Positions 37,665-45,362 of a stretch of 50,967 bases of DNA are shown here, piece after piece. Within the stretch, counting starts at the first letter, position 1; every line of letters starts with the position of its first letter. Source of the stretch: Thermoproteota archaeon (GTDB lineage Archaea; Thermoproteota; Thermoprotei_A; Sulfolobales; Acidilobaceae); contig JAUQQR010000007.1 in assembly GCA_030549835.1 (NCBI GenBank), positions 1 through 50,967 on the forward strand, in the 5' to 3' direction. A program made the translations under genes and the position numbers. A model generated the notes under the pieces. It worked only from the letters and a program-made list of their open reading frames with translations, was not told where the DNA came from and searched no databases.

Positions 37665-37763
37665 GAGTATATAATATGTGTATATAAATACTAGAGAATA
37701 CTAATATAATTAAGCCTCCCTACAATATAGGTAATTTTACAATTCAAATAACAGGTCTTAGTC

Positions 37764-39989
37764 TTAATGCTTTGGTTCTATAACTACTATCATATATTCT
37801 TCAAGTTTATCTATTAATATATTTATGTTAGAACCTACTCCTTCTATTTTTAGCTTCTCATCTGTTATCGCATTATATGCCATATATTCTTTTTGATCTT
37901 CTAACGCTGCCTTTACTTTTATATTATGTACTGGAATAATAATTCTTGGAGGATGTACACTATAAGGTGGGATTACTCTTGGTAATGCTTGCTTACTGGG
38001 CCCTGATGGTGCTGTTAATATTCTCTGATTATACGTATGATTTACTATGTGCACTATTATCCTATCTTTCTGTTTATAGTACTCTGCTTGAATAGTTTCT
38101 GGGCCTTCAACTATTACAGGTGGTTGAGGAGCATGCTTCCTTAATGGCCTAATTATTAGCTCAGCATAGTCTGGATGGCCTAACCTACTATAATGAGCTC
38201 CTATTTTAGCTGCATAGTATATTATTGTTCCATTCTCATAGCTTGCTAATGCTATTCCAGCTATATTCTCTATTGTTGAGTCTGGTGGTGGTGTTGATCT
38301 ACCTAGTGTATACTCGTAGCCATATGGTGCTTTAGCTATCATACCTAGAGCTAATACTTCAGCTGTTATTGGTCTTGCCCTAATAAGATCTCCTAATCCT
38401 TTCTCTGCTCTCCTCCTCCTAAACTCTACGCTTTGATCACCTAGTATGATATGCTCTGGTAGCCCCTCCCAATACTTACGATAAGCTCCTGTTAGAGGTT
38501 TAAGGTGTAGGTATGAGTAATTTGCTCTTAGAATACCCTCAAAATATAAACCCATAATATGCTCAAGTGCTAAAGAGTATGTATAGGTATAATCTGGCCT
38601 CATAAGCCCAAAATCACCTGTAGCTATAAGGAGGCCTCCGTTTTCAATATATGATTCAAGTATATTCTCATCCTCTCTACTTAAGACAGCTGTGCTAGGA
38701 GCTACTATAACACTATAATCTTCAATTTTATCTTTCAAGTCAACTAGTGATAAGAAGTCTACAGGATAATTATGTGCTGTTAAAATCTCATACATGCCTT
38801 CAAGCTCAGAGATATAAATATCTGGTTTATCCCAGAAGTACATATCATAGGTATTACTACTAAATAGTATAGTAGCGTATCTTATAGGCTCTGTATTAAT
38901 AAGGAAATCCTCTATCTTATCAAGTTCAGAGTAAACCTCACTTAAATAGTCTAAAGATCTAGTATCTTCAATAAACTGACTAGAGAATATTGTAGCTACA
39001 GGGTGGCCTCCTGCAGCAACAATAGTTCTAATACCTTGAACTATAGCTAATCTAGGAGCAGATTGTACAGTTCTAAGAATATAGAATAAGTTACGACTAG
39101 CTAATACCGGCTTACCACTACCAATAAGTGCTCTAGATAATTTTATGGCCATAGATATCATAGAGTACTCTACCATATCAAACTCGCTGGCCTCTGCAAA
39201 TACACTATCAAGAATATCTCTAGCTTTCTCTACTATAATATTAGCCCTACCAGCCCATGCTAATGGATGGTTATTATAAGCGAAGAGTATATCACTCTTA
39301 ACACTCTTAACAGCATCTCTTATCCTCCTCATAGCTTCAACTTGAACTTTATACCTCCACTTTAAAGCTAACCTAAAAGCTGGATCTTCATCATCTTCTT
39401 TATTTGGCAAATCTATACCATACTCTTTCTTAAACTTATCCCTACAATACTTACAATAGCAAGCTTTAGAGATATCGGGTATATACCTAAAACTATCTAG
39501 TAGAATACCCTCGGGTCTAAGGATACTAGTAGCTTCCATAGCTTCAGGTATAAAATACTCTTCTAAGGCAGGGCTATTGGGGCATATTTGAGGCCATTGA
39601 GGATCTCTAATTTCTCTAACCATGGGGAAATGTTCTAAAACAATAACTTCACCATTCTGACTCCTCTGAGCATACTCAGGCTTAGCTCTATAAATATGCC
39701 TATTAGCTGTATGATTAACCATAATTATAACATTTAAACCCTTATCTCTAGCCATACTAATAAGATCTTCAAGGTTCAACCTAGCAGTAGGATGTCTAGG
39801 GTAAATCCTACTACCTCTATAGAAAACTCTACCCCAAGGATCCCTAGCGAAAACTATGATAGTATTAGCATTAACTTTTAAAGCAGAGCTTATAATACTC
39901 TCAGCAGTAATAGCTCCAGCATAGTATCCATAAGGATCCTCAATATTAAACTGAAGTGCCCTCAATAACTTACCTCGCCACCAAGTCAA
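37764..39989 (-). CDS. Putative glycoside hydrolase (GHL6/GH42-like)
   Basis: A 741-residue protein with the layout of hypothetical glycosyl hydrolase family 6 and GH42: a TIM-barrel front (ALQFNIEDPYGYYAG, then GLNVIIMVNHTANRH, PEGILLDSFRY and a CYCKYCRDKFKKEYG zinc-like cysteine cluster), a middle trimerisation/flavodoxin-like domain from about 380 (YATILFSSNTYDMYFWDK, YSVIVAPSTAVLSREDENIL) and a beta-rich C terminus. No signal peptide is seen, so it would act on a cytoplasmic sugar. The start is probably TTG 39965, six bases after GAGGT, giving MRALQFN; the TATA-like TTATATATT just upstream of 39989 agrees. Catalytic residues cannot be assigned, and no sugar transporter lies alongside. Confidence 0.7.
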   Translation of the reverse strand: MTWWRGKLLRALQFNIEDPYGYYAGAITAESIISSALKVNANTIIVFARDPWGRVFYRGSRIYPRHPTARLNLEDLISMARDKGLNVIIMVNHTANRHIYRAKPEYAQRSQNGEVIVLEHFPMVREIRDPQWPQICPNSPALEEYFIPEAMEATSILRPEGILLDSFRYIPDISKACYCKYCRDKFKKEYGIDLPNKEDDEDPAFRLALKWRYKVQVEAMRRIRDAVKSVKSDILFAYNNHPLAWAGRANIIVEKARDILDSVFAEASEFDMVEYSMISMAIKLSRALIGSGKPVLASRNLFYILRTVQSAPRLAIVQGIRTIVAAGGHPVATIFSSQFIEDTRSLDYLSEVYSELDKIEDFLINTEPIRYATILFSSNTYDMYFWDKPDIYISELEGMYEILTAHNYPVDFLSLVDLKDKIEDYSVIVAPSTAVLSREDENILESYIENGGLLIATGDFGLMRPDYTYTYSLALEHIMGLYFEGILRANYSYLHLKPLTGAYRKYWEGLPEHIILGDQSVEFRRRRAEKGLGDLIRARPITAEVLALGMIAKAPYGYEYTLGRSTPPPDSTIENIAGIALASYENGTIIYYAAKIGAHYSRLGHPDYAELIIRPLRKHAPQPPVIVEGPETIQAEYYKQKDRIIVHIVNHTYNQRILTAPSGPSKQALPRVIPPYSVHPPRIIIPVHNIKVKAALEDQKEYMAYNAITDEKLKIEGVGSNINILIDKLEEYMIVVIEPKH

Positions 39990-40126
39990 TATATAACCCC
40001 ATAACTAATAATATAAACTAATACTTTTAACCAAAGAAAGGTCAAAACATTACACTATAAAATCTATTTAATACATATAATATGTAGAGTATGATGCAAT
40101 AATCTTAGATTTAATATTATTCTAAG

Positions 40127-40483
40127 TTATAACCTCCTCATACAACAATCACATATATCGATATTATCTCTACTTACTTTCTCTAAATATCTACTATCTA
40201 ATAAGTCTTTTAATTCACCTTTAAATCTATAAATATTAATATTTAGCTTCTCGCTAATCTCTAATCCCTTAAGTCCTATTGATGAAACAATTATGCCTTC
40301 AGCTTTAACACTCTTAGCTTTTAATATGGCCTTAGTTAATACTACTAATCCTTTAGATGCTCCTAGGCTCTCCTCCTCTCTTATAAAGTTTTCTTTTAAA
40401 TCTACTAAAAATAGTCTATCTGCTTCTAAAGGATTAGATATTTTATAACCTTTAGCTAATACTATAAATTTCAATATTTTCAC
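40127..40483 (-). CDS. NifX/NafY-fold small protein with a Cys-rich tail
   Basis: A 118-residue protein whose middle, IIVSSIGLKGLEISEKLNINIYRF, resembles the dinitrogenase iron-molybdenum cofactor superfamily, whose members bind metal clusters or act as small regulatory or chaperone proteins. The C terminus carries three cysteines in CDCC, which could hold a metal. In archaea without nitrogenase the role of such proteins is unknown. It starts with GTG 40483 directly behind GGATGG. The gap 40484-40649 before the next gene contains no ORF; AT-rich segments there include a possible promoter for this gene. Confidence 0.55.
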   Translation of the reverse strand: MKILKFIVLAKGYKISNPLEADRLFLVDLKENFIREEESLGASKGLVVLTKAILKAKSVKAEGIIVSSIGLKGLEISEKLNINIYRFKGELKDLLDSRYLEKVSRDNIDICDCCMRRL

Positions 40484-40649
40484 CCATCCATAAGCTTAAT
40501 ATCGAGAGCGTATAAACCAATTTATGTGAATTATGCATTAAGATTAAAGTAATTTTATTAAACACTCTGAGTATAGGGGGAATGTAGGTAATACAAATCA
40601 AATACTTATCCAGGAATCAAACTCTATAATGTATTGCGTATTCCTGTAT

Positions 40650-41546
40650 TTACTGGTTTACTTTAGTGTAGATTGTTATCTTTATCCTTTCGCCAGGGTT
40701 AGTTCTAGGAGTTATAGTAGCTATTATAGTGTTTTGTGTTTTTCTTAGTTCTACATCAGTAGTATCTATTATGTGGGGGTGATTTAGTGTTTCTATTAAC
40801 ATAGCGTAACTCTGATTATTTTTGAGCTCATTAAAAGTCGTCTTCACTCTATCTACTACCTCTCTATCTATATCTTTTAATTTTACATCTAGCATTATGC
40901 ATTCTACTGATTGAGCTGGTTTTAAGAGAGTACCTCCTACTATTATAGCATCCTTCTCTATCTCAATACATTCCCATAATCTCGGATTCCACATATGCAC
41001 TCGTTTTCCAGCTATTAGTGGCGGTATACTTGTCTCCACTTGTATCCTTGCTATAGGCTCAATACTTTTAGATGCAATTGTAAACTCTAATCCTTTAAAA
41101 TCACCAGTATACCAGGTTATACATAATAGGTCTGCTTTCTCTAATAGCTTGTTGAGGTAGCTGATGTCCTCGGCTTTAAAACATAATGACTCTCTAGTTT
41201 TCACTACTTCTAGTTGAGAGTATAGAGCATTAATTATTGAGAACACTCTCCTTACTAGATACTCTACATCATCTCTTTCAGCCTCAGGCCTACCTGTAAG
41301 CATAGAGATTGTATTATCGTAAGCTTCAAGTATAATTATGCAGCCACTACTCTCTCTCCTACTATTAGCTAGGAGCCCAACTACTAGATTATCTAGTAGG
41401 AAGCTTAGTGGTAATGACGCGTATCTAGCCTCAGAACCGCAAATATCTTTACCTAGAGCAGTCGATATTACAGTAGCCTCCTCTCTACTAATCTCTACCA
41501 CATTCTTCCATCTATTATCTTTCTTATCGATTTGTAATATCTTCAT
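40650..41546 (-). CDS. Unknown third gene of the ParA cassette
   Basis: A 298-residue protein that I do not recognise. It has a mixed alpha/beta composition with a hydrophobic centre (SFLLDNLVVGLLANS) but no membrane helix, no Walker motif and no obvious DNA-binding motif. It has four or five cysteines without regular spacing and a C-terminal beta-rich stretch (NTIIATITPRTNPGERIKITIYT). Its ATG overlaps the stop of the preceding gene by four bases (ATGA), so it is co-translated with the RHH-like and ParA proteins and is probably part of the same machine, perhaps a cargo or membrane adaptor. This is inference from context only. Confidence 0.75.
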   Translation of the reverse strand: MKILQIDKKDNRWKNVVEISREEATVISTALGKDICGSEARYASLPLSFLLDNLVVGLLANSRRESSGCIIILEAYDNTISMLTGRPEAERDDVEYLVRRVFSIINALYSQLEVVKTRESLCFKAEDISYLNKLLEKADLLCITWYTGDFKGLEFTIASKSIEPIARIQVETSIPPLIAGKRVHMWNPRLWECIEIEKDAIIVGGTLLKPAQSVECIMLDVKLKDIDREVVDRVKTTFNELKNNQSYAMLIETLNHPHIIDTTDVELRKTQNTIIATITPRTNPGERIKITIYTKVNQ

Positions 41547-42139
41547 GTCTTAATTCTCCTCCTAAGAGGTCTCGTACCTACACCGTACAGGTTCTCTAGT
41601 AAAGCTGTATTCCCAAAAACTAGTTCGAAGTTTCCTTCAGACTCTATAATTTCAATATCAAAGGCTGGGGCTATAGGCTTAATCTTTTCAATCTTATTTA
41701 ATATATATTTTATGGGATTTAATCCTCGCCTAGCTATCCTACTAATAGTATCCTCTAAATTGTTTAATCTTGACTCTAAGTCTCTTTTCGATACTCTCTT
41801 TGGAATTTTTCCATAGAGATCTACTAAGATTGTTGCTATAACTCCTAGAGGCTTTACATAGTTCTCAACTATATAAGCTTTATCTTTCTTTCGGAGTTTT
41901 ACTTTACCTTCTTTTACAGCCCTTAATACTAGGTCATAAGCATGATCTAGGGCTTTAGAGTATTTTAGTGAGTAATGACTATCAATATCCTCTACTATTC
42001 CAAGAAGGGTTTTAGTAAGTTCTACTATAGTATTCTCTATTGTTGAACCTCTAATATAAGCTAGCTTCTCTATTGTTCTATAGATATTATACGGTAACTC
42101 TATTATGACTCTCTGCTTTTCTCTAATGCTGCTAGCCAA
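41543..42139 (-). CDS. Probable ribbon-helix-helix partner of ParA
   Basis: A 198-residue protein. The N-terminal stretch QRVIIELPYNIYRTIEKLA followed by GSTIENTIVELTKTLLG, about residues 9-47, fits a ribbon-helix-helix DNA-binding unit: a beta strand and two helices. Middle and C-terminal parts are helical and charged, including a coiled-coil-like DLESRLNNLEDTISRIARRG near 120-140. It begins 37 bases inside the parA gene and overlaps the next gene by four bases. Small DNA-binding partners of this type (for example SegB, or RHH-type ParB proteins) bind centromere-like sites and stimulate the ParA ATPase, so this is the likely ParB-equivalent. Confidence 0.7.
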   Translation of the reverse strand: MASSIREKQRVIIELPYNIYRTIEKLAYIRGSTIENTIVELTKTLLGIVEDIDSHYSLKYSKALDHAYDLVLRAVKEGKVKLRKKDKAYIVENYVKPLGVIATILVDLYGKIPKRVSKRDLESRLNNLEDTISRIARRGLNPIKYILNKIEKIKPIAPAFDIEIIESEGNFELVFGNTALLENLYGVGTRPLRRRIKT

Positions 42140-43041
42140 TTCAGTCTCTCCTCAAATTCTCTAACCAAACTAGCTATATTAGCTTTAAGTCTATCCTGTA
42201 GTCTACGACTTACATCACTAGTATACTTACCTAAAATATGCTTTACTATATAGGGTGTGAAGCCTATAAGTTGTCCTCTAATCTTAGTTAATAGTGGATT
42301 ATAGTATAGCACAGTATCAAATACTGGATCAACAGGTGGTGGGCTTAAGTTAACGTTTTTAAAAGACTTAGAAACAGTTTCTTTAACTCTCTCACGTGAC
42401 AACTTAATTAGCTTACTATTACCCTCATCATATCTAGTTAAGATAGCACCTAGGAATACTGAAGGCTCCCTCCTAATAACCTTAGCAACATCATAGTAAG
42501 TCTCTATGAGGTACCCGACACTAGGAATACTGAAGGCTCCCTTAGCAACCGGGGTAACTATATAATCTGCTGAAGCTGCAGCTATAGTTATAACATACTG
42601 GTACATTTGAGGAGGAAAATCTATTATGACATGATCTAATTCTAATTCTTTTGTAAGACGGCCTAAGATGCCTCTAAAGCTTACAGCTCTATCCATCGGT
42701 ACATTAATACCATAAGCTGCTTCTCTCATAAACTTATGATGTGATGGTAGGAGATATAGGCCTGGTATGCCGGGAATCTCATATATAATGGGGTTTTCGG
42801 CAGGTCTAATTATTAAGTCGAAGGAGAAAACTCTATCAGTTTCAAAGGCTTTCTTAATAACTGCGCTTAGAGTAGTCTCTGTTAAGAAGACTTCAGATAG
42901 GTTAGCTTGAGGATCTAGATCAACAAGTAGTACTCTACGTTTAAGCATATATGATAAGCCAATGCCGAGAGAGGCGCTTAATACTGTCTTCCCGACGCCT
43001 CCCTTGAAGGCTATGATACCTGTAAATGTTGGTGATGACAC
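42103..43041 (-). CDS. ParA/SegA-type partition ATPase
   Basis: A 312-residue deviant-Walker ATPase. The Walker A motif KGGVGKT is at residues 13-19 with the signature lysine, followed by LLVDLDPQANLS (A') near 39-50 and HVIIDFPP (Walker B) near 135. These proteins form ATP-dependent dimers on DNA and move plasmids, chromosomes or cargo. It is longer than typical SegA. Start GTG 43041 with GGTGA seven bases upstream; both lie within a perfect inverted repeat. It leads a tightly overlapping three-gene operon. No plasmid replication gene is seen here, so it may serve chromosome segregation or positioning of a cellular structure, or be left over from an integrated element. Confidence 0.88.
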   Translation of the reverse strand: MSSPTFTGIIAFKGGVGKTVLSASLGIGLSYMLKRRVLLVDLDPQANLSEVFLTETTLSAVIKKAFETDRVFSFDLIIRPAENPIIYEIPGIPGLYLLPSHHKFMREAAYGINVPMDRAVSFRGILGRLTKELELDHVIIDFPPQMYQYVITIAAASADYIVTPVAKGAFSIPSVGYLIETYYDVAKVIRREPSVFLGAILTRYDEGNSKLIKLSRERVKETVSKSFKNVNLSPPPVDPVFDTVLYYNPLLTKIRGQLIGFTPYIVKHILGKYTSDVSRRLQDRLKANIASLVREFEERLNWLAALEKSRES

Positions 43042-43064
43042 TATTAATTCACCGGTTAATAGTG
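43039..43064 (-). promoter_or_regulatory. Perfect 9-base inverted repeat around the parA start and SD
   Basis: CACTATTAA (43039-43047) and TTAATAGTG (43056-43064) are exact reverse complements separated by TTCACCGG. One arm includes the parA GTG start; the spacer contains the SD GGTGA (minus strand). It could be an operator for the ParA-partner complex, or an mRNA hairpin with the SD in the loop and the start codon in the stem. Both would give autoregulation. Confidence 0.55.
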
Positions 43065-43110
43065 GTAACTTTAAAATTTAAAAATGTTAATTATTATATA
43101 CTTTTTTCTA

Positions 43111-43143
43111 GATGTATACATCTCTTAGATTTTTATCTAAGAG
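43111..43143. repeat. 12-base palindrome next to a 9-base-pair hairpin, upstream of parA
   Basis: GATGTATACATC at 43111-43122 is a perfect palindrome. It abuts CTCTTAGAT (43122-43130), TTTT, ATCTAAGAG (43135-43143), another perfect inverted repeat, which includes the stop codon of the Tfx-like gene. On the transcribed (minus) strand the hairpin is not followed by a T-run, so it does not look like a simple terminator; a centromere-like or operator site is possible. Confidence 0.4.
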
Positions 43144-43595
43144 AGTGTACATATTTTGGGAATTCTCTTCTTTTTATCTGGTATTGTTATGAGGTTTATG
43201 CTTCCATCTTTTTGAATGTAGACTATGATGTTTGTGTTTAGTTTTCCATCCTCTTCTCCGCCTATTCTCTTCAAGATGTCCATGATTTCTGGCATGTGTT
43301 CTTTTAGTTTTACTTTTGCGTTATTTGCTTCTCTTAAGATTCTCTTTACTGCAATATATGTATTCTCTCCTTTCTTAATCTCTACTTTAGCTAGAGATAC
43401 GGATTCAATATATGATACTATAGTTTCTATTGCTCTAATTAGATTTGATTTTGCTCTCCTCTCTATGACGGCTATATTTTCTCTCGTTGTCTTCATAATA
43501 TCTGCTATATTATTCTGAGTATAGCCTTGTGCTCTAAGCTTTAACACCTCTAACTGCTTTATTGTTAGGAATCCTTTCTTCTTTGATCCTTCCAT
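43137..43595 (-). CDS. Tfx-family DNA-binding regulator
   Basis: A 152-residue protein with an N-terminal helix-turn-helix, FLTIKQLEVLKLRAQGYTQNNIADIMKTTRENIAVIERRAKSNL near residues 9-52, which matches the Tfx family of archaeal transcription factors (sigma-70 region 4-like). The remaining domain is the family's C-terminal part (ITIPDKKKRIPKICTLS). In Methanothermobacter Tfx controls a molybdenum formylmethanofuran dehydrogenase operon; the target here is unknown. It is co-directional with and 95 bases upstream of parA, so it may be co-transcribed with or may regulate that cassette. Confidence 0.8.
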   Translation of the reverse strand: MEGSKKKGFLTIKQLEVLKLRAQGYTQNNIADIMKTTRENIAVIERRAKSNLIRAIETIVSYIESVSLAKVEIKKGENTYIAVKRILREANNAKVKLKEHMPEIMDILKRIGGEEDGKLNTNIIVYIQKDGSINLITIPDKKKRIPKICTLS

Positions 43596-44531: not shown

Positions 44532-45362
44532 ATTACTGAGATTTCAGAGGATAATATCAGTTCTTTGAGAGATCTCTGGTTTAAAGGTGTTAAGGCATCA
44601 GATATTGCTAAAATTCTTAACATAGACTCTAACCTTGTCTATGCATATGCAAGAGTATTGGGCCTCTCTCCTAGGAATAGGTCTGTTATTAAGATGAGCT
44701 TGGATAAGATAGATGAGTTGAAAGACTTGAAGTCTAGAGGCTATACTACTAGAGAGATAGCTGGAAAACTTGGTGTAAGTATACCTACAATATACTACTA
44801 CTCTAAGGTACTAGGACTCTCAAAACCTAGAAGTAAGTGTGAGAATATAAGTATAGATTCTCTAAAAGAGCTCTACATAAGTAAATTAACAGATAGAGAA
44901 ATAGCTAGAAAACTAAACTCAACCATAAACTGTATTAGGAGACTTAGAACTAAACTAGGACTTAAAAAGACAATAGAGAAGTCTAAACTAGATCTTAAAA
45001 TAGACAAGATAATAGAGGTACTTAAGGTAAAGGAGTACACCACAACTCGAGAACTTAGACAAATGGGTATCACGATAACAAGGAGACTATTAGAAGAGTT
45101 AAGGTATAGGAATCCGGGTGTAAAATGGTTTAAGCTTAGATACGTGTCAACATCAAAACATCAGGTATTCCACCCGAGAATGGTTGGGATAAGAATAATA
45201 TACTTAGAAGGTAGTGAGGAGACTGTAGCTAAGTACATAGCAGGTAATATAGAGGAGAATATCCCGGTTAGAGTAGTTAAAATACTCTTAAAAGAAAATG
45301 GTGTACCTAGTAAGATAGTAGAAGAGCTTATCAAAATCTTTACTATGAAAAGTTATAAATAA
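44532..45362 (+). CDS. Protein with three tandem HTH repeats (possible ATT start)
   Basis: The N-terminal half is three copies of a roughly 45-residue helix-turn-helix unit of the Hin/HTH_23 type: SLRDLWFKGVKASDIAKIL..., ELKDLKSRGYTTREIAGKL... and SLKELYISKLTDREIARKL..., each ending in a V/TxLGL segment. The C-terminal 120 residues are an unfamiliar mixed domain. TTG 44565 would cut into the first repeat; the frame runs upstream through I-T-E-I-S-E-D-N-I-S, and GGTGG at 44521-44525 sits six bases before ATT 44532, suggesting an ATT start (CTG 44526 is too close to the SD). The gene leads into the CcdA-like and thioredoxin genes and is divergent from LysE. Confidence 0.75.
   Translation: MTEISEDNISSLRDLWFKGVKASDIAKILNIDSNLVYAYARVLGLSPRNRSVIKMSLDKIDELKDLKSRGYTTREIAGKLGVSIPTIYYYSKVLGLSKPRSKCENISIDSLKELYISKLTDREIARKLNSTINCIRRLRTKLGLKKTIEKSKLDLKIDKIIEVLKVKEYTTTRELRQMGITITRRLLEELRYRNPGVKWFKLRYVSTSKHQVFHPRMVGIRIIYLEGSEETVAKYIAGNIEENIPVRVVKILLKENGVPSKIVEELIKIFTMKSYK

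Follow-up and report, generated by a model that had tools for sequence, protein, structure and literature searches.

An overlapping three-gene ParA cassette with a conserved third protein in Sulfolobales

The cassette and its chromosomal site

We analysed a stretch of 50,967 nucleotides (the window) from the Thermoproteota archaeon assembly GCA_030549835.1 (contig JAUQQR010000007.1, Acidilobaceae, Sulfolobales). Its minus strand carries a cassette of three genes, with parA as the first, and the following features were found at this locus:

37665..43136: insert missing at the corresponding site of G001 and G004, two genomes of the window's genus; contains, besides the cassette, a 118-aa ORF and a GHL6 glycosyl hydrolase-like gene
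40650..41546, minus strand: third gene (298 aa, pI 5.8, ATG start)
40650..41201, minus strand: C-terminal extension of the third protein (~190 residues; conserved C122, C142, C193 and C216)
41202..41546, minus strand: N-terminal domain of the third protein (residues 1-115; free-standing relatives in Ignisphaera and the SKYB35 lineage)
41543..42139, minus strand: second gene (198 aa, pI 9.7, TTG start) with an RHH-like N-terminal segment (~residues 10-50)
42103..43041, minus strand: ParA gene (312 aa, pI 9.3, GTG start), a deviant Walker-A ATPase
43039..43064: inverted repeat CACTATTAA-8-TTAATAGTG, covering the ParA start codon (P ~0.07 against shuffles)
43121..43144: inverted repeat TCTCTTAGAT-4-ATCTAAGAGA, between tfx and parA (P ~0.04 against shuffles)

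The overlaps are 37 bases between parA and the second gene and 4 bases, as ATGA, between the second and third genes, which confirms from the open reading frames the overlapping ParA cassette that an earlier note on this DNA had described. The 37-base overlap hinges on the TTG start of the second gene, for which there is no alternative in-frame start codon before the first predicted beta-strand. Inside parA, a run of 22 bases is repeated exactly and in direct orientation (42450-42471 and 42521-42542, 71 bases apart) and is read in two different frames, as KGAFSIPS and REPSVFLG.

In G001 and G004 the gene for pyruvate dehydrogenase E1 alpha follows tfx at a distance of about 50 bases or less (L297 11744-11793; L298 11707-11751), compared with 5.5 kb in the window. 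The insert has a GC content of 0.347, against 0.417 and 0.375 on either side. In two further genomes of the genus, G002 and G003, the cassette is located elsewhere. The cassette is accessory, since this site is empty of it in two close relatives; loss and gain are indistinguishable here. No integrase or transposase was recognised near the cassette and no flanking repeat at the borders of the insert. A protein encoded at 44565-45362 of the window gave several helix-turn-helix-like matches, the best of them TnsD-like (33.1 bits vs a Pfam cut-off of 32.4).

The inverted repeat over the ParA start codon has a single match in the window and is a possible, if weak, candidate for an autoregulatory site. 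The repeat between tfx and parA is a putative operator or terminator. Both perfect inverted repeats were found not to be conserved in relatives, and no upstream operator or centromere-like repeat was conserved between loci.

Properties of the three proteins

The first protein can be assigned securely to the ParA family from its sequence. It matched Pfam AAA_31 (3.1e-19) and CbiA (1.3e-13), both above cut-off, and PHROG 164 "ParA-like partition protein" (2.9e-28). The motifs KGGVGKT (residues 13-19), D41-x-D43-P-Q and D141-x-PPQMY do not vary among the 13 members aligned, which range in length from 292 to 314 aa, and the protein thus has the deviant Walker A (KGGxGKT), A' and Walker B motifs of the ParA superfamily. 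Its best sequence matches among solved structures were the ParAs 5u1j and 5k5z, which we take to be pNOB8-type segregation ParA. No close relative was found in plasmid, phage and viral collections, where the best matches were generic ParAs of ~33% identity. This is the sole ParA-type ATPase found in the window's genome (96% complete), the remaining P-loop matches there looking like Get3/ArsA and Mrp. In G001 and G004 no ParA-type partition ATPase was found, and by inspection their P-loop proteins are of the Get3, Mrp and hydrogenase-cluster types. An extra P-loop gene considered as a SegA-like substitute in these two genomes was rejected, as it sits in a hydrogenase cluster and looks Mrp-like.

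The second protein matched no Pfam family. Its orthologue in G002 weakly matched an Arc-like repressor profile, PHROG 582 (residues 6-53, E 0.006), and a five-member profile gave weak matches in the PDB, among them the antitoxin EndoAI (E 0.68). On these weak matches and a sequence pattern, an RHH identity is plausible but weak. The RHH-like proteins are 173-202 aa in size and carry their RHH-like part N-terminally; the C-terminal region beyond it is uncharacterised and in the window's protein ends in a basic tail, RPLRRRIKT. DNA binders are usually basic, and both ParA and the RHH-like protein are basic.

The third protein had no match in Pfam, NCBIfam, PHROGs, PADLOC or the PDB. The previous statement that it has no recognisable domain therefore holds for every library used, but it overlooks a conserved N-terminal domain which stands alone in other genera, as free-standing proteins of ~119-128 aa. 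The invariant residues of this domain include G32, D34, C36 and C70 (numbering of the Ignisphaera protein at L011; C70 corresponds to C69 in the window). Outside the window's genus, matches to the third-protein profile end at approximately position 110, and relatives of the C-terminal extension were found only in G002 and G003.

AlphaFold2 modelled residues 1-110 of the third protein confidently (pLDDT mostly 77-93), while the C-terminal part is unreliable. Most of residues 115-298 fell below pLDDT 50, and a fold search with the full-length model was for this reason meaningless. A free-standing Ignisphaera homologue was modelled with pLDDT 83 and pTM 0.73 and has the secondary-structure order b-b-a-b-a-b-a-a. 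The fold search with the domain model returned no PDB or viral structure with E below 0.001; RHH matches among viral proteins in this search were discarded at an rmsd of ~8-10.

Three functions had been proposed for this protein. A nuclease and a cell-surface tether are unsupported, as the protein matched no nuclease family and has no predicted membrane span. Of the three guesses a cargo adaptor is the best candidate. The possibility that the third protein is a known, unrelated enzyme was also looked into, and no match to a known enzyme was obtained.

Distribution and gene order in Sulfolobales

We surveyed 214 Sulfolobales genomes (in the GTDB sense) for the ParA subfamily (E below 1e-25) and for the third-protein profile (E below 0.01). 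A scan of genome contigs with the single ParA sequence gave no match; scanning with an alignment picked up the Ignisphaera and SKYB35 relatives. The 13 genomes with the ParA subfamily proved to be the 13 with the third-protein domain, and come from 3 genera of 3 families: 3 of the 6 genomes of the window's genus (g1), 8 of Ignisphaera (g16) and 2 of a third genus (g40: Sulfolobales archaeon SKYB35 and a relative). If the two were distributed independently, the chance of this agreement would be ~5e-21 by genome and ~1e-5 by genus (3 of 78), the latter being the fairer figure because the genomes are related. None of the 12 other genomes with the ParA subfamily lacks the third-protein domain, which upholds the proposed tie between the two proteins. 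Both genes are open in 13/13 genomes. Member ParAs scored at least 325 bits, compared with 88 bits for the next-best ParAs in a sample of the phylum, so that the subfamily is well delimited. The third-protein domain was not seen outside the order among 398 sampled genomes of the phylum. The trees of ParA and of the third domain agreed on the g1 and g40 clades and on several subgroups, with long-branch warnings on the trees.

Two exceptions were noted. One Ignisphaera genome, G123, lacks this ParA subfamily but has a divergent gene for the third domain (L174 5879-6307), and G127 has a second, broken copy of the third domain (L175 4122-4316). A weak third-domain match in G144, with no ParA or related gene beside it, was treated as chance.

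The order parA-RHH-third is common to five genomes, those of g1 and g40, which belong to two families, and their genes overlap or are separated by gaps of at most six bases. This conserved order, together with the co-occurrence of ParA and the third protein in 13/13 carriers among 214 genomes, means that the cassette is more than a chance arrangement. At the Ignisphaera loci a nitroreductase gene separates ParA from the third gene, the two being within ~1.3 kb of each other. LysE (unlisted for one locus of the eight) and a gene for a class I tRNA synthetase of the W/Y type come after the third gene, and the local context matches across the eight genomes. The constant coupling claimed in the earlier note is thus borne out as co-occurrence, but strict adjacency is lost in this genus. 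A local search of the eight Ignisphaera genomes found no RHH-like ORF of at least 40 aa near ParA. It should be noted that the g1 RHH profile fails to detect even the g40 RHH-like protein, which leaves room for a distant RHH gene in another part of the Ignisphaera genomes. Since Ignisphaera keeps ParA and the third protein without a nearby RHH gene, the third protein is a more constant partner of ParA than the RHH protein. The pair is also carried by the sequenced type strain I. aggregans, which has one replicon and no extrachromosomal element (PMC3035270), so that it is chromosomal there.

The neighbourhoods of the cassettes differ. In three Ignisphaera species only, a small hydrophobic and probably membrane protein is encoded just upstream of ParA:

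L011 7551-7802, L038 3959-4213 and L041 7825-8079: 83-84-aa hydrophobic protein

In the SKYB35 lineage (G090 and G091) a phosphate transporter and a PhoU-like gene follow the operon (L045 5829-7541). LysE lies near ParA in the window as well as next to the third gene in Ignisphaera; this linkage was rejected for the window's genus because all six of its genomes have LysE, which in G002 and G003 is on another contig than the cassette. No neighbour gene was common to the cassettes of g1, g16 and g40, as a shared cargo of the McdAB type would be.

Comparison with known systems and possible function

The ParF-ParG and delta-omega types are two-gene ParA/RHH partition cassettes of bacterial plasmids. 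The cassette resembles them in that parA adjoins an RHH-type gene (RHH-like here), and differs in its added conserved third gene, its large RHH-like protein (173-202 aa) and its chromosomal location. McdA/McdB systems pair a ParA-like ATPase with a small partner which is dedicated to it and lacks a common fold. A ParA-like ATPase with a small partner is likewise found here, the match to McdA (1.5e-11) being generic ParA similarity only, but no cargo gene was found beside the cassette.

The AspA-ParB-ParA system of pNOB8, which occurs on plasmids as well as chromosomes of crenarchaea, consists of three overlapping genes, for the winged HTH protein AspA, the 470-aa two-domain adaptor ParB and ParA (PMC5120986). 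The present system is similar in having three overlapping genes in thermophilic Thermoproteota and a ParA of similar length, with these ParAs as its best PDB match. The gene order, however, is parA-RHH-third in five genomes rather than aspA-parB-parA, and no profile match in the PDB was obtained to the winged HTH of AspA or to the Spo0J-like N-terminal and CenpA-like C-terminal domains of ParB, very remote homology being possible. SegAB is comparable in that the gene of a ParA-type ATPase overlaps that of a DNA-binding partner (predicted here) and that a third protein exists, namely SegC, which interacts with SegAB in Saccharolobus (PMC11381335). SegA is 219-261 aa in length (PMC12284271), whereas the ParAs described here are 292-314 aa. 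SegC is a 165-aa protein with a ThDP-fold encoded by a divergent gene (PMC11381335, PMC12284271), in contrast to the third gene here, which is last in its operon and whose product gave no PDB match, to a ThDP-type fold or any other, by profile or with the modelled N-terminal domain (none with E below 0.001). Inspection by eye of 160 bases upstream of parA did not show the SegAB palindrome core AGA(G/C)TCT. As AspA-ParB-ParA and SegAB with SegC both have three proteins, the earlier premise that SegAB and ParAB systems normally have two cannot serve as a general rule. No description of this triplet was found in the open-licence literature; the partner family and the gene set therefore appear to be undescribed, whereas three components as such are already known.

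The most likely reading, though only about as probable as not, is that the cassette is an accessory chromosomal ParA module which positions or segregates DNA, with the third protein as a dedicated adaptor. In such a module ATP-bound ParA would dimerise and spread on the nucleoid, and the RHH-like protein, where present, would bind specific sites and so mark the DNA to be moved; it may also repress its own operon. The third protein would be dedicated to ParA, either connecting it to the bound DNA or setting off its ATPase activity. That the cargo is DNA, that ParA contacts the third protein and which way the regulation runs are all inferred. A DNA-positioning module is favoured by the operon, by ATPase motifs that are intact and by the basic character of ParA and the RHH-like protein, and the greater constancy of the third protein favours its role as a direct partner of ParA. 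Against this stand the lack of a centromere-like repeat conserved between loci and the fact that G001 and G004, of the same genus, live without such a ParA. A mechanism based on marked DNA is also not obvious in Ignisphaera, as no RHH-like gene lies near ParA.

McdA, MinD and MipZ position protein or membrane cargo, and it is less probable, although a real possibility, that this ParA does so too, with the third protein as activator of the ATPase or adaptor for the cargo, and with no role for the RHH-like protein beyond repressing the operon. The third protein as invariant partner beside a dispensable RHH gene would suit this, as would the 83-84-aa hydrophobic protein upstream of ParA in three Ignisphaera species and the phosphate transporter and PhoU-like gene after the operon in G090 and G091. 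Yet no cargo gene is common to the three genera, the LysE neighbour in the window is unlinked to the cassette in G002 and G003, and the ParA most resembles partition ParAs. It is unlikely that the genes once partitioned a plasmid or other mobile element and now survive in the chromosome as its remnant, whether maintained or decaying, without a present role in chromosome segregation: the patchy occurrence in the genus (3/6), the empty site in two relatives, the different sites in G002 and G003 and the lower GC of the insert point that way, but no integrase, transposase or flanking repeat was recognised, the plasmid, phage and viral collections hold no close relative, ParA and the third gene are open in all 13 genomes and the context matches in eight Ignisphaera genomes. 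Quite improbable is a regulatory module unrelated to positioning, in which the ParA-like ATPase would work with the RHH protein as a regulator that depends on nucleotide. Many RHH-like proteins are repressors and a Tfx regulator lies upstream in the window, but the Tfx neighbour is absent from the cassettes of G002, G003, G090 and Ignisphaera, and in eight genomes no RHH gene adjoins ParA.

The pairs of ParA and third protein in Ignisphaera suggest, rather tentatively, that the third domain may be a new class of ParA partner which serves ParA without RHH or ParB, the DNA-binding subunit being optional. If this were true, the triplet would be a distinct archaeal ParA system. Archaeal chromosome segregation is poorly understood and few systems have been studied. 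The set is small and testable, comprising ParA, the third-domain protein of ~125 aa and an optional RHH-like protein, with one member in the type strain of I. aggregans, and within one genus members do with or without their only ParA. It could show whether archaeal ParAs use classes of partner beyond ParB, SegB and AspA.
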